Below are positions 7,314 to 59,560 of a DNA stretch of 64,000 nt, piece by piece (within the stretch, counting starts at the first letter, position 1; the number at the start of each line of letters is the position of its first letter). This DNA comes from Callaeas wilsoni (lineage: Eukaryota; Chordata; Aves; Passeriformes; Callaeidae). Under the pieces are notes generated by a model that saw only the letters and a list, made by a program, of their open reading frames with translations, was not told where the DNA came from and searched no databases. Both the position numbers and the translations under genes were made by a program. Where the stretch lies: contig VWPU01013446.1 in assembly GCA_013398955.1 (NCBI GenBank), positions 46,268 through 110,267 on the forward strand, in the 5' to 3' direction.

Positions 7314-7432
7314 CATGGAATCATGGAAAGGGTTGGAAGGGACCTTCAAGATCGTCTCATTCCAACCCCTGCCACAGGCAGGGACACCTTTCCTGGCTGC
7401 TCCAAGCCCTGTCCAACCTGGGCTTGACATCA
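7314..7432 (-). mobile_element. CR1 LINE 3'-end fragment
   Basis: It starts with CATGGAATCATGGAAAGGGT, continues into GGTTGGAAGGGACC, then 'caggcagggacacctttcc' and 'tgctccaagccctgtccaac'. That is the reverse complement of the CR1 3' tail, so the element lies on the minus strand and is 5'-truncated. An A-rich stretch follows at 7438-7450. Confidence 0.9.
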
Positions 7433-7774
7433 AATGGAAAAAAAAAAATTAAATCCAAGGAATGAGTGCCTTATCTCACTTATAAACCTAAATTTACTGT
7501 TCTATTCCCAAACCTCACAATGAGGGATCATTTTTCCTCCATTTTATCCAATCTACTGGAAAACATCAACATTTGTCACCTTCACCTGCCCAAAATTGCA
7601 CCAAGCAGCCAGAGCTGCAGCTCCTCTGTGCACAATGAAATCCAGGGGTTGCTGCCAGCTTTTCCCTGTCCTCATCGATCCAGCAGGAAACTTTTCCAGT
7701 GGGAATCAAGTTTGGGCAGGTATGAGCCCTCCTGAAAACCTCATCCACTTTCCTGGGTCTTCCAAGTGAAATCC

Positions 7775-7902
7775 TGTGCGGAAAATCCCGCTATGAAAAG
7801 CCAGTGTCCGAAACGGAGACAGAGGAATCCTGCAAATTTATTTGAATAAAGGGAGCGAGGCCACTGGGGGTTTTCTCTCTCGAGGTTTTGGAGGGCGCAG
7901 CC
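7775..7902 (+). repeat. Compound inverted repeat, segment A (copy 1)
   Basis: This segment is the inverted partner of 8210-8352. Shared landmarks, read on opposite strands, are TGTGCGGAAAATCC, 'gagacagaggaatcctgcaa', 'gaggccactggggg' and 'ttttctctctcgaggttt'. It differs from its partner by substitutions and by the absence of a GC-rich insertion of about 13 bp (near 8246-8258). It is the leftmost of four blocks ordered A, B, A-inverted, B-inverted. Confidence 0.85.
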
Positions 7903-7930
7903 TCGTTCTGACAGGGAAAATATCTTCCCA

Positions 7931-8209
7931 AACAATTCCATGGGTGAGGGGACGGCTGTTAACGCCTTTGAGACCGGGCTTAATGTCTCTATTAATTTCA
8001 AGCAGCAGCTTTGTTGCAGAGCCCGGACAGTCTGACTCCTGAAACAGCGAAATGGGGCTGCACGAGCAGGAGTTTCTAAACTTTGGGGGAAAAGGACAGG
8101 TTCAAGGAGGGATACGGGGTAGGCGGTTTGGGAAGGCTGCACCTTCCTGGTACCTCAGCAAAGGGGGAAGGAGGAGGGCAACGTGCGGCCGGGAGTTTGG
8201 GATAAAAGG
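7931..8209 (+). repeat. Compound inverted repeat, segment B (copy 1)
   Basis: This is the inverted partner of 8353-8622. Shared landmarks are AACAATTCCATGGGTGAGGG, 'gaaacagcgaaatgggg', 'tttgggggaaaa', 'gctgcaccttcctggt' and 'gggagtttgggataaaag'. By eye the arms are about three-quarters to four-fifths identical, and best over 8085-8209. The block abuts the inverted A copy at 8209/8210 with no spacer. Confidence 0.85.
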
Positions 8210-8352
8210 AGGCCGCGCCCTTCGAAACCTCGAGAGAGAAAACCCCGCGGGCGTGTCCCCCAGTGGCCTCTCTCCGTTTATTCGAATGAAGTTGCAGGAC
8301 TCCTCTGTCTCCTTTATGGACACCGCCTTTACCCAGCAGGATTTTCCGCACA
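8210..8352 (-). repeat. Compound inverted repeat, segment A (copy 2, inverted)
   Basis: This is the inverted copy of 7775-7902, lying exactly between the two B blocks. It is CpG-rich (GGCCGCGCCC, TTCGAAACCTCGAG, CCCGCGGGCG). It carries an extra GC-rich insertion of about 13 bp relative to copy 1. Several overlapping open frames cross it on both strands (for example 8052-8459 on plus and 8076-8468 on minus). Their similarity to each other comes from the inverted symmetry, not from a gene. Confidence 0.85.
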
Positions 8353-8622
8353 CTTTTATCCCAAACTCCCAGCTGCGCGTTGCCCTCTCCCTTGCCCCAT
8401 GGGCTGAGGCACCAGGAAGGTGCAGCATTCCCGAACCGCCTGCCCCATATTCCCCCTAAACCTGTCATTTTCCCCCAAAGTTCAGAACCCCAGCCTTGCG
8501 CGGCCCCATTTCGCTGTTTCGGGAGCCGAACCGTCCGGGCTCTGGAACAAACCCGCGGCTGGCAGTGGGGACAGAGGTTAAGCCCCTCTCAAAGCCCATC
8601 CCCTCACCCATGGAATTGTTTG
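8353..8622 (-). repeat. Compound inverted repeat, segment B (copy 2, inverted)
   Basis: This is the inverted copy of 7931-8209. It begins CTTTTATCCCAAACTCCC and ends CCCATGGAATTGTTT. Together with 7931-8209 it could fold into long double-stranded arms around 8210-8352. Confidence 0.85.
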
Positions 8623-9884
8623 TAAGGACACCAGCGCGCATCTTCCCTATCACTCCCAAAATCCCCGCCCAGGTAGGTGGGTGAGCGGGGGTCACATCAC
8701 ACAAGGGAGTCACTCCCAGTCCTCCCAGTGCATGGATTTGCTGTGCATCCAAATAATCCCATTTCAGGTGATTTCTGCACCTTGGATGAAACAGATTCCA
8801 TCCACAGTGGCCTTAAATCAGGATAAATCCATGAAAACGCTGTGAACGCTGTAGGAATAAAAAAGGACATCACAAAATTAACCCAGCTGCCAGCAATGTT
8901 GGCAGAGTCCGAAATCGAATTGCTGCTGTTTAATTTATACTTTAAACTGTTTCCTAAATTAAGACTGGGAAGGGAGATTAAAAATTAAAACAGTTTTCAA
9001 CACTGAAATGAGAAAAAAATTTAAATTATGATCCATTTTTTTTTTTTCTAAAATAGCACTTCAAGGAGTAAGAAGCAAATTGGTTAAAATTCAGGTGCCA
9101 AAAGCACAGGAGAACCCAGTAACTGTGAGAATTAATAAAATCTCCGTGAGGTTTTTGCTTTTTTCCAATCAGATAAAAGTGGGAACACGCAGAGGGAAAA
9201 TCTGAGCCCTCATGTACAACTTTGTCACTTCTCCAAAGTGTCACCACAGAGATCCTACAAAACCAACACTCATGGAAGTGAGGATGAACGTCTGAGTCAG
9301 TGCTTCAGAGCCAGGACATGGGGAGTGTCTGCCAGGATCAAATCCCTGTCTCTGGAGTCTGGAAAAGAAGGGAAAAAAATTGTGGGCATGCTGGAATCAG
9401 CCTCTTCCCTTCTGAAATGGGATTCACTTCGAAAATGGAATATAGACCTGGATCAATCCACCTGTTTCCTGGAGATGCCACTTTCTCCAGTGAAACGGTT
9501 TAATTTGTAATTATGAGGCCTAGGAAAACGGAGGGAATTTTGTCTCAGCCCCTTTGGAGCCGAAGGAAGAAGGTGAGATGTGTGGATGAATTGCTAAGCT
9601 GGGGTTTGGGATTCTTGGCATTTTCCATGGGCACCCCCAGAGTCTTAATTCCAAGGAAATCTCATCTTCAGCACTTCTGAAACTCTGCCTACACCGTGTG
9701 ACACATCCGGAAGACAAATTGAATGGCTGGACCAAATCCCAGCACAAATCCCAGTTTTTATCTGGCATCTGTTTCTGGGTTTGCTCCTTGCCTAAGGTCA
9801 TACCAGCCCAAATTAATTCCGTTGAAACCTTCAGAAATCATCGGAGCTCCTGTTTATTTCTGTCTGAAAACAGCATCCAAAGTC
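8623..9884. other. Unique non-coding sequence
   Basis: There is no CR1 signature or convincing gene. 8870-9050 is AT-rich and ends in a poly-T run near 9037-9048. Confidence 0.45.
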
Positions 9885-18426: not shown

Positions 18427-18624
18427 AGTCATGTCAGGTTTTGCATTTATTCCTCTCATTCCTTTTTTCTAATGACTGGAAAGGATGATTTGATTAAGGC
18501 GACCTCTAATTAAGCGAACATCCAGCTGGAGCCAGGGCGTCTCACACATGAAAAGGAACTAAGAAAGTTGGGATAAATTGTCCCTCAGTTCTTCTTGAGT
18601 CGTGTTAAACAATCCTGTCTTGTC

Positions 18625-18665
<41 letters not shown>

Positions 18666-18685
18666 AGTAAAAAAGTCATGTCAGG
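18427..18685 (+). mobile_element. Retroposon-like insertion with target-site duplication (copy 1)
   Basis: A body at 18439-18623 is followed by a clean (TAA)n tail (18627-18665) and TAGTAAAAAA. The whole insert is bounded by a perfect 12-base direct repeat, AGTCATGTCAGG, at 18427-18438 and 18674-18685. That is the footprint of target-primed insertion of an RNA copy. The body matches 20431-20615 at 184 of 185 positions. I recognise no CR1 sequence in it and cannot name the family. Confidence 0.75.
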
Positions 18686-20430: not shown

Positions 20431-20686
20431 TTTTGCATTTATTTCTCTCATTCCTTTTTTCTAATGACTGGAAAGGATGATTTGATTAAGGCGACCTCTA
20501 ATTAAGCGAACATCCAGCTGGAGCCAGGGCGTCTCACACATGAAAAGGAACTAAGAAAGTTGGGATAAATTGTCCCTCAGTTCTTCTTGAGTCGTGTTAA
20601 ACAATCCTGTCTTGTAGTAGTAATAATAGTAATAATAATAATAGTAATCATAATAATAGTAATCATAATATTAATAATAATAGTAA
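20431..20686 (+). mobile_element. Retroposon-like unit (copy 2) with imperfect (TAA)n tail
   Basis: The body at 20431-20615 is 184/185 identical to 18439-18623, with the single difference at 20444 against 18452. It is followed by a TAA microsatellite broken by TAG and TCA triplets (20616-20686) and TAGTAAAAAA. I find no clear target-site duplication, so this may be the source locus or an insertion whose 5' part extends further left. Confidence 0.7.
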
Positions 20687-46976: not shown

Positions 46977-47375
46977 GAATCCTGGAATCATTTGCGGTGG
47001 GAATGATGCCTAAGATCACCCGGTCTGCCCTGCCAAGGTCACCACCGCCCCATGTCCCCAAGTGCCATGTCCACATGGCTTTTAAATCCCTCCAGGCATG
47101 GGGACTCCACTGCTGCCCTGGGGTGGACAATCCTTTCCATAAAGAATATTTCCTTAATATCCAGCTTTAACCTCCCCTGGCCCAGCCTGAGGCCGTCCCC
47201 TCTCCTCCTGTCCCTGTTCCCTGGGAGCAGATCCCGATTCCCCCCCCGGCTGCCCCCTCCTGTCGGGGAGTTGTGCAGAGCCACAAGGTCCCCTCTGATC
47301 CCCCTTTTCTCCAGGCTGAGCCCCTTTCCCAGCTCCCTCAGGAATTCTCCAGCCCCTTCCCATCTCCGTTCCCAC
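46977..47375 (-). mobile_element. CR1 LINE 3'-end fragment
   Basis: About 400 bp follow CR1 in reverse complement: 'cctggaatcatttgcggtgg', 'ctaagatcacccggtc', 'tccaggcatggggactccac', 'cctttccataaagaatattt', 'ccttaatatccagctttaac', 'gtcccctctcctcctgtccc' and 'ctgatccccctttt' leading to 'ctccaggctgagcccctttc'. Long frames on either strand (up to 177 codons, 47039-47585) are by-products. Confidence 0.9.
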
Positions 47376-48048: not shown

Positions 48049-48233
48049 CAGCCGTACCAAACAACTCCAAGTTTCATTTCTAGACAGTTGTTTTGAGGCT
48101 GCATTTTTTTTTGTACCGAGTTTTGAATGGATTTGGGGCTTTCGTTGTTGTTTCTGGAGGATTATTTGTTCTTTTTCACTTCCATTTGATCTGGAATCTT
48201 TGTCTTTCATTACTGTAAAGCCATTTCCTCCCG
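48049..48233. repeat. Local duplicate, copy 1
   Basis: It matches 49752-49934 in the same orientation with about seven substitutions and a small T-run length difference. Shared landmarks are CAGCCGTACCAAACAA, 'gtttcatttctagacag', 'ttttgaggctgcat' and 'ttcattactgtaaagccatt'. Similarity stops sharply at both ends. I do not recognise the family. Minus-strand frames through both copies share a peptide (A-S-K-Q-L-S-R-N-E-T-W) that comes from the duplication. Confidence 0.9.
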
Positions 48234-48773
48234 CTGCTCGAGCCCTTGAGTTGATTAAGTGGTACAAAGCATTCCTGGGACACTCAGTAAATAACAATGC
48301 AAACATGTTTATGTAACACTTTCATGTGCTAATGAGGTTTTTATGCTGGAGTTGAACGCTCTGCTGTCCCGGAGTCTGGGGCTCTTCAACTCTGGGCTCT
48401 TTGATGTGAAGGGAGCACATTCGGTTTTCATTTTGCCGAGATGAAGCTGCTGTTTACCCTCGGTGCCACTTCTCCACGAGGGAATGCTCCAGATTCACGG
48501 CGGCGGCTGTGGCTACGCCACAAGCCGGGACTGAAGGGAAGGAGGGAGGTTTTTATGGAGTCCCCACGTTTGGGACTGCAATAGGCTCTCCAGGAGAAAA
48601 CTCCTGATCCAAGCTCGGTGAAGCCATTTCAGAAGGTAAATTTGAGCTGCCTTCCATGGGTCGTTGGGATAAAATATTCATGGGCAGAGATTTAGGTCAT
48701 TTTTCCTGTCCATCTGAGTGATGGTTTCAGAAGTGGAGAGAACAAGCTCTTCCCTCTGCTCACCTGGCAGGAA

Positions 48774-49015
48774 GCTGTGTCGGGAGATGTTTGGGTTGGA
48801 TTTCAGGAAAAGGTTCTTCCCCCAGAGAGTGCTGGGGCACTGAACAGGCTCCCCAGGGAATGGTCACATTCCCAATGCTGCCAGAGCTCCAGGACCACGC
48901 TCCCGGGGATGCACGGGGTGGGATTGCTGGGGTGTCTGTGCAGGGCCAGGGGTTGGATCAGTGATCCTTGTGGATCCCTTCCAGCTCAGCATATTCTATG
49001 ATTCCATGATTCGCT
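48774..49015 (+). mobile_element. CR1 LINE 3'-end fragment (CAGCTCAGGATAT-tail group)
   Basis: 'tttgggttggatttcaggaa', 'aaggttcttcccccagag', 'ctccccagggaatggtcaca', 'gtgcagggccaggggttgga' and 'cccttccagctcagcatatt' with a CTATGATTCCATGATTC tail. The tail is well preserved, so this is one of the younger-looking copies. Confidence 0.9.
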
Positions 49016-49751
49016 GACTTCCATCTCGGGCACTTCCACATAAATTCAGCCAAGGACTTCCTTAAATTGAAGAAAAAAACCCCACAAATTGTTACAACCT
49101 GAGCTATAAGGAGGAAAATGTCTAAAATTCTAACAAATTAGTGTTTTTCACAAAGTAGGCATAGAGGGAGAGTTATCACACACATACCCCCCCTCTACCT
49201 CCCCTCTCCAAAATAATTTAGATTTGGACTTTTCCTAAATCCATCAATGTTGGAGGCAAGTATTGGCCACGTGGAATGGGTCTGGTCCAGGCTGAAAATT
49301 CCAAGGACACCTAGAAGGCAATTTATGCCAGCAAATTCCACGTTGGCCTCTGAGCCCCACCCAAACCCTGGGTCTGTATTAAAAGTTTTTCTTTAATCCC
49401 TCCTAATGCTAAAGAGTACAATTAACATGAGGAGTAGTATGGCAAAAATAAAGCTTTATATGACAGAATGGTAGTAATTAGGTATTAAGAAATTAATGTG
49501 ATATTTTATGTTGCCAGACCAGCCAATGGGAATTTTCTTTCCCATTCCATTCTATGAAGTGGTGGCAAAAAGCTTGATCTGGTAGAAACAGAACACAGGA
49601 TAATGAATATTATTTGTGACAAATGAGGGCCATGAATCAAAGCTTCTGAACTCCACTGGTAATCGTTGGGAGTTACGACAAACTTTGGCATCTGGAACCA
49701 AATCTTGAGGATCCATTGCTCAGGACAAGTCTTCCTTTGACCAAGAACCTT
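49016..49751. other. Unique non-coding sequence
   Basis: A C-rich stretch lies at 49180-49207. No gene or repeat signature. Confidence 0.4.
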
Positions 49752-49934
49752 CAGCCGTACCAAACAATTCCAAGTTTCATTTCTAGACAGCTGTTTTGAG
49801 GCTGCATGTTTTTGTACCGAGTTTTGGGTGGATTTGGGGCTTTCATTGTTGTTTCTGGAGGATTTTTTGTTCTTTTTCACTTCCATTTGATCTGGAATCT
49901 TTGTCTTTCATTACTGTAAAGCCATTTCCTCGCG
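49752..49934. repeat. Local duplicate, copy 2
   Basis: This is the partner of 48049-48233 (offset about 1,703 bp). No target-site duplication is obvious at either copy. Confidence 0.9.
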
Positions 49935-50929: not shown

Positions 50930-51344
50930 GGGCTGGAAAACTTGTCCTATGAGGAGCAACTGAAGGAGCTGGGGGTGTCTAGCCTGGAGAAAAGGAGGCT
51001 CAGAGGGGACCTTATTGCTCCTCACAAGTCCCTGGAAGGACGCTGTGGTGAGGTGGGGGTTGGTCTCTGATCACAGGTAACAAATGACAGTACAAGAGGC
51101 CTCAAGTTGCACCAGGGGAGTTTTAGATCAGATGTTAGGAGAAAAGAATTCATGGAAAGCGTCGTAAAGCATTGGAACAGGCTGCCCGGGGCAGTGGTGG
51201 GATCACCATCCCTGGAAGTGTTCAAAAAATGGGAGGATGTGGCATTTGGGGACATGGTGGTGGTGGTGCTGGTGCTTGGTTGACAGCTGGACTTGATGAC
51301 CTTAAGTCTTTTCCAACCTTAACAATTCCACGATTCTCTGATTC
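50930..51344 (+). mobile_element. CR1 LINE 3'-end fragment
   Basis: 'ggctggaaaacttgtcctat', 'gaggagcaactgaaggagct', 'gcctggagaaaaggaggctc', 'gtgaggtgggggttggtctc', 'cattggaacaggctgcccgg', 'caccatccctggaagtgttc' and 'aagtcttttccaaccttaac' occur in sense order. About 415 bp remain. The 66 bases just beyond its end also match the flank of the CR1 at 58010-58339. Confidence 0.92.
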
Positions 51345-51409
51345 AAGTGTGTGCCCAGGCCTTCTTATCTGGGAAGGCACTGCATTGCTTCCCTGTCTGT
51401 CCTTCCCAG
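51344..51409 (+). repeat. Duplicated CR1 downstream flank, copy 1
   Basis: 'cttcttatctgggaag', 'attgcttccctgt' and 'cttcccag' recur at 58338-58402, directly after another CR1 of the same type. The sequence is beyond the normal CR1 terminus. Confidence 0.8.
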
Positions 51410-54400
51410 AAGAAGAATTCCCTCTCCCTTCCTGTTTCTGGTCACTGTTGCTTCTTTTCGTTTCATCTGGACCTTCTGAGCTCCACGTTCCCCACATCAC
51501 AGTGGGTTTTATCCACCTGTAGAAGACACTGGAAAGGTCAGGACAGGTGGCATCAGGATGACAGAAAACCATGGATATTACCTAGGCAACGGAGACCCTC
51601 CAGGGCAGCAATTTTTAGCAGCAGGGATCCTTGCCTGTACTGGTTTGGCTTGGGGATCTCAGAAGTCTTTTCCAACATTCCAACTGGATTATTTGAGTCT
51701 GGGATTGGCGGGCGGGGGGTGAGGCTGAACTACAGAGCTTTCTCCTCCACCTCCAGGACACTGTGTCTGTTACAGCATTTTAATTTCCGTGGCTTTCCAC
51801 TTGTGCATCCTCCTTATTTAGGGAACAAGCTGGAACTGGGAGGTAAAACAGACACAGCAGGAGTGGTTTTGTTTCTTTGAGAGGTTGAATCATAAGCAAG
51901 GCAAGATTTACGGTGGTAAATATATATATTTTTACACTATCTGAATAGCATCTCTTCCTATAAATATGTCAGGCAGCAGCTTCTCCCTAGAAACGAGGTC
52001 TCAGGGAAATTTCTCTTTCCCATCCAATTCCGAAGTCACAAATTGTCATTGCTTGCTGCTATTATCAGTGTTCCAAAATTCCTTTTCCTTGTCTAAAGAG
52101 AGAGATTGTCTAAGAGATAACACCCATTGTCAGGTGAATTAATTCTTCCTTGAGGCTTTGGTTCAGTCAGCTACATTAAAACACACTAATTAGGTTGCAG
52201 GGGTTATTCCTGACTTTAATTTTCCCCAAAAAATGACAACTGTGACACTCAATCTCATTCCATTTAATTTCTTCTGCTGGCATATGGTTGAGATTTTGTG
52301 CTCGACCACTCGCATGTCAACAGGCAGGAATCTTGCCCAAGAAACCGCTGGGCAAATCTCATCCTCATTTCTCAAATATTTGGTTTAAAACTCATAAAAA
52401 TAAACAGTTGCCTCTTGAATCAGGTCATCCTGTTAAGAACTGGGCTTTCACTCCAGGCTTAGCAACTGCAAGCAGGTTCCCTGTCTTCGAATATTTTGTT
52501 TTCTGAAATAAACCCTGCAGCTAGGCCTAATCATAATGGTAAAAAATAAGGGAAGGAAAATGTTGTCAGAGATCCAAACATACAATTTTATGTCATGAAA
52601 AGCTTTTATTCTGGTTCCTATTCTCGCTCGTGCACAGATTTATTGAAAAAAAAAAAAAGCCTTGACATTTATTCATTTTCCACTTAGATTATTGTGGTTA
52701 AATCAAAAAGAAGTGTCAGGGCTTAGGGAGCTGAAAGCAGCCCCGCTTTTTCCATTGTGACTTGGTCACATGGTTCCCATTTGTTCCATGAAAAACCTCC
52801 TGGTTTTGGTTATTTTCCCTGTCTGGAATGAGATAGAATTCCGCTGCTGCTGCCAAATCTCCTGTATCGCGGAGGAAACTCCGGCATCTTGGGCCGTCTG
52901 CCTGAGTTCAGCATGTTCCGCAAGGGGCTGCTTTATTATTGTTAGTTGTTGTTATTGTTGTTGTTATTATTAAATGTTTCCAACGCCCTCAGGGGAATCT
53001 TGGAGTCATCGTTGGAAACCCTCCTTCGGACAAGAGAGGAGGGAAGGAAGTCTTGGGGACGGTCCCGACACGTGGCGAAGGGGACGTGGAGTCAGCTCTG
53101 GCTCCCGTCACATTGGGGAGATATTCCAGGTTGGAGTACCTCAAAACCCTGTGGAAATCCAAAGAAGGATTTTGGGGCAGGTCACCGGTTCCATCATGCC
53201 CATGTTCTGCTGTTTGCAGCCAGGTTTCAAGGAAGAAAATGGATCTCCCAGCTTTTCCAGAGGGAAGCTGGGCACGGGGTCCGGTGCAGGTAAATTCTGG
53301 CAGCTCCAGGATTTACAACTGGTTGGTCTTTAGTTGTCATCCCACAGGATTTTAGTCCACTCCAATTCCATTTAAAAATGAGTTGATTAAACTTCCGTAA
53401 AGGGAAAACAAGATTGGCTCTGTCCCAAGCAAAAATATATCTGTGATTATGGATTTTGGCCAGTGAGTTCCTTGGGACTGGAATTCTATTGGGAATCTAT
53501 TCAGTGGATCAATAGTGACCACTGAGTTTTAATTCAGAAACTCTCCAGTAAAGATTTCCAAGAAAAGACACAATGAAAAAGGAAGGAAAATAAAAATAAA
53601 ACTGAATACAGACTTAAAGATTGCACTGGATGCATTTAATTTCAATATAGATCTACTTAACAATGCCAAAAATTACTGATGGATTAAGAAAAGATGTTTT
53701 TTATATTGGATTTAACTGACAGTTTGGAATTATTTCCTTTACAATTAGCTGGATGTAATTTAGATTTTATTGACTCCACAGACAGGTCCCTGGAGGGGAC
53801 ATGCCCTCATCAGGTGAGACCAGTCCCACCTAAATTCCAAGAGCTGTTCTTAAACCAGCTGTGAACACGAGAATTCCAAGATGTCATATGTAAACAACAC
53901 TAATTTAAGGAAAATATCGTTCAGAACCAGAGAAATATTTCATTTTATTAGCGTGGAATTGTCACATTTTGACACTGCCAGCAGAAAAATATTTATGAAA
54001 AGGGAAACATCTTGTTCCAATCAAGGGAAATGTTTTATTCCTGCTTTCTCTGTTTGACACATTAGAGCACGAAGTTACTGTTCCACGCATGTGACACCTC
54101 ATGTAAAATTAATAACAATGAAATTGCAAAGTCAGGGAGGGATTTAAAAAATGTTTATTTGGGCGGAATCTTTTTCAACTTAAAATTTGCTGAAGCACAA
54201 ATACTTGGATTTTATTTCTGAAATCTCTCCTGGCTTTAATTCAAAAAAGAGTTTGTGTTCCTCAAAATTCATAACTGGACCAAAATCTGCAGTAGAAACC
54301 TCACCTTCATCTCTCACCTACAACCTTTTCCCCACTTATCTTTTCATATTGTGATAACAAAATCACTGAAAAATGGCAATGCTTGTTGTTTTAAATTACT

Positions 54401-54752: not shown

Positions 54753-56384
54753 CATGGATGTCACTTGTCTGGAAAAGGCTCCGGCCTGGTTTTGCTGCAG
54801 TCGGAGGCAGGATCTTCCCAAATAATCTCTGAACACAGAGAATATTGGTTTGGAGCTCAGCCCTGGGAAGTGCTGCCTTCAGAAGAGCATTCGAGGTTTT
54901 CCAAGGGCACTTTTCCTTCTGACGCAGGAGGAAACACCACCTGGCAAACATTTTCCATTAAAAACCAGTGAGGTGGGATGGGATAATCCGGAGCATTCCA
55001 CCTCAAATGTGAGAAACCCATAGGCGCACAATGTATTTGGAATTATTTATTGGTTCTCTCCATTATTTCTCTATAATCCTCACCTCCACGTCAACCGCCG
55101 TGAAAATTTAGGAATAAATAATTTTCTCCCAAGTATTTCCATATTTTGTCGTAATAATTTTTCCCTGTGATTTCTCAGCCAGCTCCTGCACCAGATAAAA
55201 TCTTCTCCCATGTGTAATCCATGCTTTGGAACGAGATTTTCCGCGAGTTTCAGACTTGTTTGCACGTGTTCCAATGTTCGCTTGTTGCCACGTTCTCGCT
55301 TCACTCCAAATCAGAGGGGGAAATTTCGTAACACCAGAAGCTCCAACAGCTACTCGAAGTCAGATTTGCATTCTGTCTCCGTTTTTCCTAACGAAGATTG
55401 ACTGGGAACTTGGAAAGAGAGAATTTTTTGGATTTGGTTTTGTTTGGGTGTTTTTTTCCCTCCAGTCTGGAGCTCAAGAATATTCAAACAACAGGAAAAA
55501 CCACTCAGGAAATACTTAGAGATTTCCAGCAAAAATCAAAGGAAACAAATACATTTCTTTAAATTATTTCTGGGGCTTTGGCACTGTAGAAAATAATCTC
55601 TGATATTTTAGACTGGAAAAAATAAATAAAAGTCTTCTCCCTTCAACATTCTTATCTGCATTTATAGGAGCTCTTCCAGCAGAAAATTTAAAGATGGTAT
55701 CTTCGATTCATGCAAAATTATGAGTTATCTTTAATTCATCTTTATTTTGAATTTTAAATCTAAATTTTAACTTTTAAATCCTATTATGAATCAGGAGTCA
55801 TCCTTATTTCATCTTCATCTCGATAAACTTCCTAGCATCAAATTCATTTCAGGAATTTTGAATTTTTTCAGGGTCACAGCCCTGACCTGAGACTTTGCTC
55901 ATCATCCCACTCTATCCCCTTCCGACAGCTCCAATCTGGAGCAACGAGTGTTCATAAACTCAGTTTAATTTAAATTATTTTATTATTAATATTATTTTCT
56001 CTGCTGACAGTGAGGAACATCGAGCATTCCTTGAGGAATCCATCGTGCATTTTTATTCCGCTTCCTCTCCGTACCGGCGATGACAGAAACCGTGCCCAAC
56101 TGCCTTTTTCCGTAACCGAGGGATGAGACTTGCTCCTGCAGTTAAGCAGAACCGTGGTCCCATGCGGGATCCGCAGTCCAGATTTCGGTGTTCCGGCACA
56201 CGTCCCAGCCTATGGATAACCCTCTACATGCTCTGATGGGGACATCCCTCCCTTCCCCGTCCCTCCTTCCCACGGAAAGGAACACAGATATCCAGTGCCG
56301 AAGGGATATTTGAGAGGCGGGAGAAGACAGAAAGATCCCGGTTCCTGAACACGGGGTGATCCCACTGTGCAGCAAACGGGAAAG
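54753..56384. other. Unique non-coding sequence
   Basis: AT-rich at 55540-55990, with no repeat signature or gene. Confidence 0.45.
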
Positions 56385-56853
56385 AGTTACAGAATCATGG
56401 AATCACTACGCATCTAAAAGACCTCCAAGATCATCAAGTCCAACATTTGAACCATTTTGGAAGTGCTAAATCTGCCCCTTTTTTTAATGCTTCCGGGGAT
56501 GGTGACCCCACCCCTTCCCTGGGATGCCTGTTCCAATGCTTAATCATTCTTTCAGCGAAGACATTTTTCCTGATCTCCAATATGGCACGGCTTGAGGCCA
56601 TTTCCCCTTGTCCTGTTGTTCCCTGGGGGAAGAGGCTGATCCCTGCCTTGCCACTGGCTCCTTTCAAGGAGTCGCAGAGAGAAATAAATTCTCCCCTGAA
56701 CCTCCTTTTCTCCTCCTCGGGCTCCTGTCCTTTCCCCAAATTTCATTCCCTTCTCTGGACACGCTCCGACCCCTCAGGGTCTTTCTTGTTGTGAGGGACC
56801 CAAAGCTGATCCCAAGATTTGAGGTGCGGCCTCACCAGTGCCCAGCACAGAGG
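56385..56853 (-). mobile_element. CR1 LINE 3'-end fragment, the longest in the window
   Basis: About 470 bp of CR1 in reverse complement: 'acagaatcatggaatcacta', 'aagatcatcaagtccaacat', 'gatggtgaccccaccccttc', 'cctgatctccaatatggcac', 'ggccatttccccttgtcctg', 'ccttttctcctcctcgggct', 'ttcccttctctggacacgct', 'gagggacccaaagctgatcc' and 'gaggtgcggcctcaccagtg'. Minus-strand frames here (56434-56739, 101 codons) are in CR1 sense orientation but lie in its 3' region and contain no recognisable enzyme domain. Confidence 0.93.
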
Positions 56854-58009: not shown

Positions 58010-58339
58010 GCTCCCTGACAAGAGGTCGCAGTGAGGTGGGGATCGGTCTCTTCTCACAGGTGACAAGTGACAGGACAAGAGGAAACGGTCTCAAATTGCA
58101 CCAGGAGAAGTTTAGATTGGATATCAGGAAAAATTTCTTCACAGAAAGGGTGGTCAAGCACTGGAACAGGCTGCCTGGGGAAGTCATGGAATCAGCATCC
58201 CTGGAGGTGTTCTAAAACCATGTGGATGTGACACGTGAGGACGTGGTTTGGTGCTGAACGTGGTGGTGGTGGTGCCAGGCTGACGGTTGGGCTTGATGAT
58301 CTTGGAGGTCTTTTCCAACCTTAATGATGCTGTGATTCC
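58010..58339 (+). mobile_element. CR1 LINE 3'-end fragment
   Basis: 'gcagtgaggtggggatcggt', 'tgacaagtgacaggacaaga', 'ttggatatcaggaaaaattt', 'cactggaacaggctgcctgg', 'cttgatgatcttggaggtct' and 'tttccaaccttaatgatgct' with a TGTGATTCCA tail. It is the closest relative in the window of 50930-51344. Confidence 0.92.
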
Positions 58340-58402
58340 AGTGCGTTCCCAGATCTTCTTATCTGGGAAGTCGTTTATTGCTTCCCTGTTTGTTCTTCCC
58401 AG
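58338..58402 (+). repeat. Duplicated CR1 downstream flank, copy 2
   Basis: It matches 51344-51409 beyond the CR1 end. It ends in a strong acceptor-like tract (CCCTGTTTGTTCTTCCCAG); a GTAAGG donor-like site follows at 58432, which would bound a 29-bp segment. Confidence 0.8.
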
Positions 58403-58900
58403 AGCTCTGCTGCATCAACTCATTCCCACAGGTAAGGTTTATAACCCCAATAAACAATGGTCTCCTCTCACTTTCCAGACCACAAAATAACTGTTTCTCA
58501 TTATTCCAACCTTTCCCAAGCAATGACGCTGGCTAAAATCCTGCCGTTCCCACCAGCATCCTGCCCCATCTCGAGTGGCTCCTGCTCCAGCAATTTTTCG
58601 GAATTTCCCTATTCAGATAGGCTATGGGCCTTCGGAAGGAAAAACAACAAACCCTGCACACCCTATTCGGATATCACTCCCCTGTTCTGTGCTGAATTAA
58701 TTCTCTTTGCTTTCTGGAAGCCTCTCCTCGAGTGTCTGCAGGCTGTTTCCAGGTTCCCTGTGCTGCGCTTCCAGAGCCAAGCCATTCATCTTTACATGAC
58801 TCAGAGGCTACTTTCCTCAGCCAATTAATCATGGAATTGGGTTTCCCCCATGGTGCCTTCACTGGCTCATCTGTATCTCTGTGGAAATGAAGGGCCTGGG
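58403..58900. other. Unique non-coding sequence
   Basis: This is the left flank of the 20-bp minisatellite. The 123-codon frame at 58457-58828 shows no recognised domain. Confidence 0.4.
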
Positions 58901-59560
58901 AGTGAGTGCAGCATCCCGGGAGTGACTGCAGCATCCCGGGAGTGACTGCAGCATCCCGGGAGTGACTGCAGCATCCCGGGAGTGACTGCAGCATCCCGGG
59001 AGTGACTGCAGCATCCCGGGAGTGACTGCAGCATCCCGGGAGTGACTGCAGCATCCCGGGAGTGACTGCAGCATCCCGGGAGTGACTGCAGCATCCCGGG
59101 AGTGACTGCAGCATCCCGGGATTGACTGCAGCATCCTGGGAGTGAGTGCAGCATTCTGGGAATGAGTGCAGCATCCCAGGGGTGAGGGTGGCATCCCGGG
59201 AGTGAGTGCAGCATCCCGGAGGTGAGTGGTGCATCCCGGGAATGAGTGCAGCATCCCGGGAGTGAGTGCAGCATCCCGGAGGTGAGTGGTGCATCCCGGG
59301 AATGAGTGCAGCATCCCGGGAGTGAGTGCAGCATCCCGGGAGGGAGTGCAGCATCCCGGGAGTGAGTGCAGCATCCCGGGAAGGAGTGCAGCATTCCGGG
59401 AGTGAGTGCAGCATCCCGGGGGTGAGTGCAGCATCCCGGGATTGACTGCAGAATCCCGGGAGTGAGTGCAGCATCCCAGAGGTGAGTGTGGCATCCCGGG
59501 AGTGATTGCAGCATCCCGGGAGTGAGTGCAGCATCCCGGGAAGGAGTGCAGCATCCTAGG
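58901..59560. repeat. 20-bp minisatellite, 33 units in perfect register
   Basis: The unit is AGTGACTGCAGCATCCCGGG. Ten identical copies run from 58921 to 59120. The remaining units vary by substitution only, with no insertion or deletion across 660 bp. A 60-bp higher-order repeat (GGTGAGTGGT-type, AATGAGT-type and AGTGAGT-type units) is duplicated at 59221-59340. Most units carry a CCCGGG. On the minus strand all three frames are open for 230-367 codons and read the same 20-residue cycle; these are artefacts of the repeat. Confidence 0.98.

Follow-up and report, generated by a model that had tools for sequence, protein, structure and literature searches.

LTR retrotransposons can be nested, one element interrupting another, as in the maize case. 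In chicken, seven nested LTR elements have been reported (PMC5006616), and complex LTR elements are described as arising by template switching in reverse transcription (PMC1950507). Long terminal repeats tend to carry a set of common motifs, namely TG and CA ends, an AATAAA signal and a less conserved TATA box (PMC3601003). For songbirds, TG...CA ends in combination with a 4-bp target-site duplication have been used as a rule that assigns an LTR to ERV1 (PMC6523648); duplications of this length are produced by gammaretroviruses and spumaviruses (PMC4358916). Nested LTR elements are generally known; among the titles listed in our literature searches on them, none names the exact arrangement described below.

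Here, we analyze an interlocking inverted repeat in a 64,000-nt stretch of DNA (the window). We find it to be almost certainly explained, judging from the sequence of the locus and its relatives, by two solo LTRs of a single ERV1-like family of endogenous retroviruses, one lying inside the other in opposite orientation.

Results

Comparing positions 7400-9000 with the window by blastn revealed two interlocking inverted diagonals. Block A (7775-7907) pairs in inverted orientation with A' (8352-8206; 147 columns, 77.6% identity, E value 1e-30) and block B (7929-8208) likewise with B' (8622-8353; 281 columns, 78.6%, E value 5e-62), both pairs being ~78% identical. This bears out the order A-B-A'-B' claimed in a sequence-only reading of the same DNA, whose block coordinates prove correct to within a few bases. 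In the stretch it had left unassigned (7903-7930), A comes to its end, four bases follow that are presumed to be a target copy (7905-7908), and the inner element begins at 7909 with diverged sequence. B', confirmed as a block, extends to about 8652 rather than ending at 8622. The region was also rightly called CpG-rich, with observed/expected ratios of 0.68 for the inner and 0.66 for the outer element as compared to 0.33 for the window (GC contents 0.545, 0.57 and 0.46, respectively).

Reverse-complementing B A' gives A B', so the locus can be read as A [B A'] B'. That is, it consists of a unit A B', hereafter E, with an inverted relative of E at a single point between A and B'. Within the 64,000-nt window there was no further copy of E, the one match being 20 bases long with an E value of 0.57.

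The window contains several other repeats. A 232-bp direct copy (97%) is found 2 kb apart at 18439-18670 and 20431-20662, as if copied by retroposition or templated repair; the former is flanked by the 12-bp direct repeat AGTCATGTCAGG (18427-18438 and 18674-18685), which the edges of the latter did not show. A 185-bp direct repeat (94.6%; 48049-48233 and 49752-49934) has differing 15-base flanks, and a diverged repeat (66–75%) occurs in both orientations at 51048-51410, 58031-58403, 47040-47341 and 56461-56713. At 58898-59556, a 20-base unit is repeated 33 times in tandem, with several minus-strand frames open, and the CpG ratio of 54900-56800 (0.60–0.71) is among the highest in the window, at only 36–50% GC.

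To place E in the host genome, we searched a 1.00-Gb assembly (G000, the window lying on its contig C7507) with positions 7760-8640 as the query, and scored 40 of 731 first-look candidates. The size of this assembly, together with CR1-like ends, suggests that the genome is that of a bird. Apart from the window itself, all 39 places among the 40 scored candidates (of 731) cross the B|A' junction at 78–86% identity. B and A' occur together and dispersed in the host genome, which supports the above reading of the locus. The matches fall within positions 144-605 of the 881-base query (window 7903-8364), some ending ~30 bases before the 3' end, and further partial places lie beside two of the copies (C9794:62840-63009 and C10251:48001-48163). 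In C10251:48001-48871, a partial copy of the LTR lies inverted relative to another, ~320 bp away, and the two may form a second close pair; the fetched copy L024 covers only 48310-49070 of this region.

After fetching the 39 copies, we retained 26 as complete at both ends (homology ending no more than 6 bases from the 5' end and no more than 2 from the 3' end, a rule fixed after a preliminary look) and dropped 13; one of the 26 (L045) lies near the fetched edge, rendering its 5' flank unreliable. An exact 4-bp target-site duplication flanks 15 of the 26, and the 4-base flanks of the others agree at three positions in six copies, at two in three, at one in one and at none in one. By comparison, lengths of 3, 5, 6, 7 and 8 gave exact duplications in 0/26 copies each, and 16 shifted positions in 0–2/26. 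Most complete copies start with TG (19/26) and end with CA (24/26). The TATA-like box GATAAAAG is present in 17/26 near position 300 (290-308) and AATAAA in 22/26, all but one occurrence falling at 369-392 and mostly near 385, so that the promoter box precedes AATAAA, in LTR order. Seven copies for which up to 1.5 kb of flank was compared (some limited by contig ends) have only ~455 bp in common (at an E value of 1e-5). The idea that two copies 5 kb apart on contig C9538 flank a single provirus was rejected: both look solo, a separate 4-bp duplication surrounding each of them (CCCT and GCTC).

Behind two copies, L028 and L036, similar sequence continues past the ends (32 bases at 78%, E value 0.003). 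The first ~230 bases behind L036, which we refer to as the leader, recur at 28 other places, and for the 18 of these whose match starts no more than 12 bases from the leader start we fetched the upstream DNA. A relative of E was found upstream on the same strand in 18/18 cases, on the opposite strand in 0/18 and in 0/112 control pieces of the window of 551 bp. Aligned lengths of these leader-linked relatives range from 39 to 449 columns. Since only three of the 18 extend as far as position 438-444 of 444, at most 6 bases short of the 3' end of E, with 13 stopping at 412-414 and two at 274-276, most of the leader-linked LTRs belong to a related subfamily. Together, the ends of the dispersed copies, their duplications and the leader-linked relatives indicate that E is an LTR, or very near to one with a proviral leader. 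Given that the duplications of the family are 4 bp long, E would qualify as ERV1-like by the duplication rule. A DNA transposon with terminal inverted repeats was also considered and rejected, as TGATAGGG or TGACAGGG at the start and TGTGCGG, the end in reverse complement, have, by eye, little in common beyond TG.

Searches for coding capacity and for known families returned little. One 2.5-kb piece behind one copy contained no open frame of more than 82 codons. A search with translated sequence from part of the inner LTR matched, as one of three candidates, an open frame in a public contig (P0002; 80% over 56 residues) that follows U3 collinearly, from close to the 5' end of the outer LTR through the TATA-like region; P0002 as a query in turn led to P0003, a second open-frame relative in public contigs. 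Four short DNA patterns had no match in viral_contigs and one had none in genome_contigs, and the P0002 scan of viral_contigs yielded eight pattern matches, none of which was confirmed. In the window, there were no Rfam families at gathering scores and no tRNAs according to ARAGORN, and Pfam applied to ten of its open frames gave a single match, which was under the cut-off.

With the family copies as a guide, the parts of the nested pair can be assigned. The inner solo LTR (B then A'; 7909-8352, plus strand, 444 bp) starts with TGACAGGG and ends with CCGCACA, and thus carries both TG and CA termini, its limits coinciding with those set in the dispersed copies by TG/CA ends and 4-bp duplications. 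Its U3 part comes first and R-U5 follows behind the TATA-like box GATAAAAG (8201-8208), with the U3/R border being inferred; at 8285-8290, AATGAA corresponds to the poly(A) signal in decayed form. The outer LTR lies on the minus strand. Its U3 part (B', 8353-8652) is collinear with the inner LTR up to and including the TATA-like box (8353-8360), directly behind which the inner LTR begins, and its end at 8652 is the counterpart of the TGATAGGR start of the family copies. The R-U5 part (A, 7775-7904) ends with CA on the minus strand and retains an AATAAA poly(A) signal (7837-7842).

At the point corresponding to this junction, all 26 complete copies are uninterrupted by eye, L038 and L041 each having gained one base. 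Relative to the inner LTR, the outer LTR has four extra bases here, which is the length of the family duplication. These (GTTC, 7905-7908) represent the presumed left target copy of the inner LTR, the right one being CTTT (8353-8356), which is at the same time the end of the outer TATA-like box. The two agree at two of four bases, and the presumed duplication around the outer LTR, ATCC (7771-7774) and CTCC (8653-8656), at three of four. The duplications at this locus may have decayed; neither is proven there, and 11 of the 26 family copies likewise lack an exact one. An exact 6-bp repeat, AAATCC, also surrounds the outer LTR (7769-7774 and 8659-8664). It is most likely due to chance, an exact repeat of this length being seen at 5/4482 TG anchors as well, and a misfit for a family with 4-bp duplications. 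A first model, in which this repeat was the duplication of an outer LTR starting with TGGGAG, was dropped, given that family copies start with TGATAGGR and have 4-bp duplications.

How do the two LTRs relate to each other? Of 419 aligned sites, 348 (83%) are identical (K2P distance 0.19), the 71 differences consisting of 41 transitions and 30 transversions; for this comparison, the outer E was aligned as 440 bp, of which 6 bases are judged to be outside the LTR. Among 41 aligned sequences, the distance between inner and outer LTR is 0.191, as compared to a mean of 0.178 over all pairs. Eighteen of the 39 copies are closer to the inner LTR than the outer LTR is, and four are closer to the outer than the inner is, a ranking biased by the choice of the copies for their likeness to the window, the inner count more so than the outer. 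Tree supports near both LTRs are low (0.03–0.2). On these distances, the two look like separate members of the family.

A single local event, in which template switching during replication left copies of A and B in inverted orientation and swapped order, could also yield inverted copies without spacers, and template switching over short ranges is known to occur (PMC7954356). However, the switch points would have to fall together and, in addition, match the ends of a repeat that is independently dispersed, and the inner and outer LTR each have closer relatives elsewhere. We thus regard this alternative as highly improbable. Nesting, by contrast, accounts for all four junctions with a single insertion point: An inverted relative at one point of an LTR yields the order, the missing spacers and the four extra bases, leaving neither a template-switch rearrangement nor a circularly permuted insertion, two of the origins previously suggested for the locus, with anything to explain. 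Even less credible is a self-contained transposon or satellite unit A-B-A'-B' that is mobile as a whole. The strong predicted fold described below would suit such a unit, but none of the 39 other scored places (40 of 731 scored) spans the query, their matches being confined to positions 144-605 of 881 plus the expected cross-matches. The third suggested origin, a transposon with long inverted arms, fails on the same places, which consist of B A' with no inverted arms. What stands of the earlier interpretation is hence the geometry and the mobile nature of the DNA, and none of the three origins as worded. Finally, an assembly or collapse error deserves equally little credence, as copies that differ at 71 of 419 aligned sites are not assembly-made duplicates of each other and the junctions agree with LTR ends.

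Might the inverted repeat act at the RNA level? Predicted fold energies are far below those of shuffled sequences (z of -16 for the plus and -22 for the minus strand; 20 shuffles per strand), so the repeat is not due to chance. The predicted fold is a B:B' hairpin with A' in its loop, drawn by a program that does not draw pseudoknots. On the plus strand, G.U and A.C mismatches are balanced in both pairs (5:5 in A and 14:12 in B), and with no wobble bias, there is nothing here to point to selection for pairing in RNA.

Discussion

What sequence of events could have led to this arrangement? A provirus would have integrated with its LTRs on the minus strand and been reduced to a solo LTR (7775-7908 plus 8353-8652). 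The integration of a second family member would then have followed, this time on the plus strand and immediately past the TATA-like box of the first LTR, with a duplication of 4 bp; this member, too, would later have been reduced to a solo LTR (7909-8352). The dispersed unit with its ends, the 4-bp duplications of the family, the leader-bearing relatives and the uninterrupted site in the other copies are observed directly; for both LTRs, we infer the full-provirus stage, the LTR-LTR recombination and the order of events, the outer LTR coming first because nesting requires it.

Is there a physiological role for the locus? Double-stranded RNA or a pseudoknot, as proposed in the sequence-only reading, would be possible in principle. 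A read-through RNA could form the predicted B:B' hairpin, with A:A' excluded from the nested fold. Taking this further, read-through across the nested LTRs might produce an imperfect duplex of ~270 bp as a substrate for a small-RNA or editing pathway directed at the LTR family as a whole, a scenario which we consider very unlikely. The promoter of the outer LTR is probably broken, with the inner LTR separating the outer box from the downstream part. Most likely, the locus is inert and the interlocking palindrome a by-product that requires no function.

More generally, any LTR or other repeat hit by an inverted relative will assume the order A-B-A'-B', so that plain nesting can look exotic. Where this order is encountered, nesting should be the first thing tested, ahead of any appeal to template switching or a new element. 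The present case is most likely an ordinary nested insertion of a known type of element and not a new kind of element.

How, then, does the locus compare with described systems? Like the solo LTRs of avian ERV1 elements (PMC6523648), the family has TG...CA ends, 4-bp duplications, a length of ~450 bp, a TATA-like box and AATAAA, and the seven copies with longer flanks have no flank in common. With the complex LTR elements of PMC1950507, the locus has in common that two related elements are joined at one site. Unlike in those, one of the two here lies inside the other, dividing it with a gain of four bases, and they seem to be separate family members. As in nested LTR retrotransposons, one element interrupts another. 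In contrast to these, however, it is here two solo LTRs of one family that meet in opposite orientation, and it is this that turns a simple nesting into an interlocking inverted repeat.
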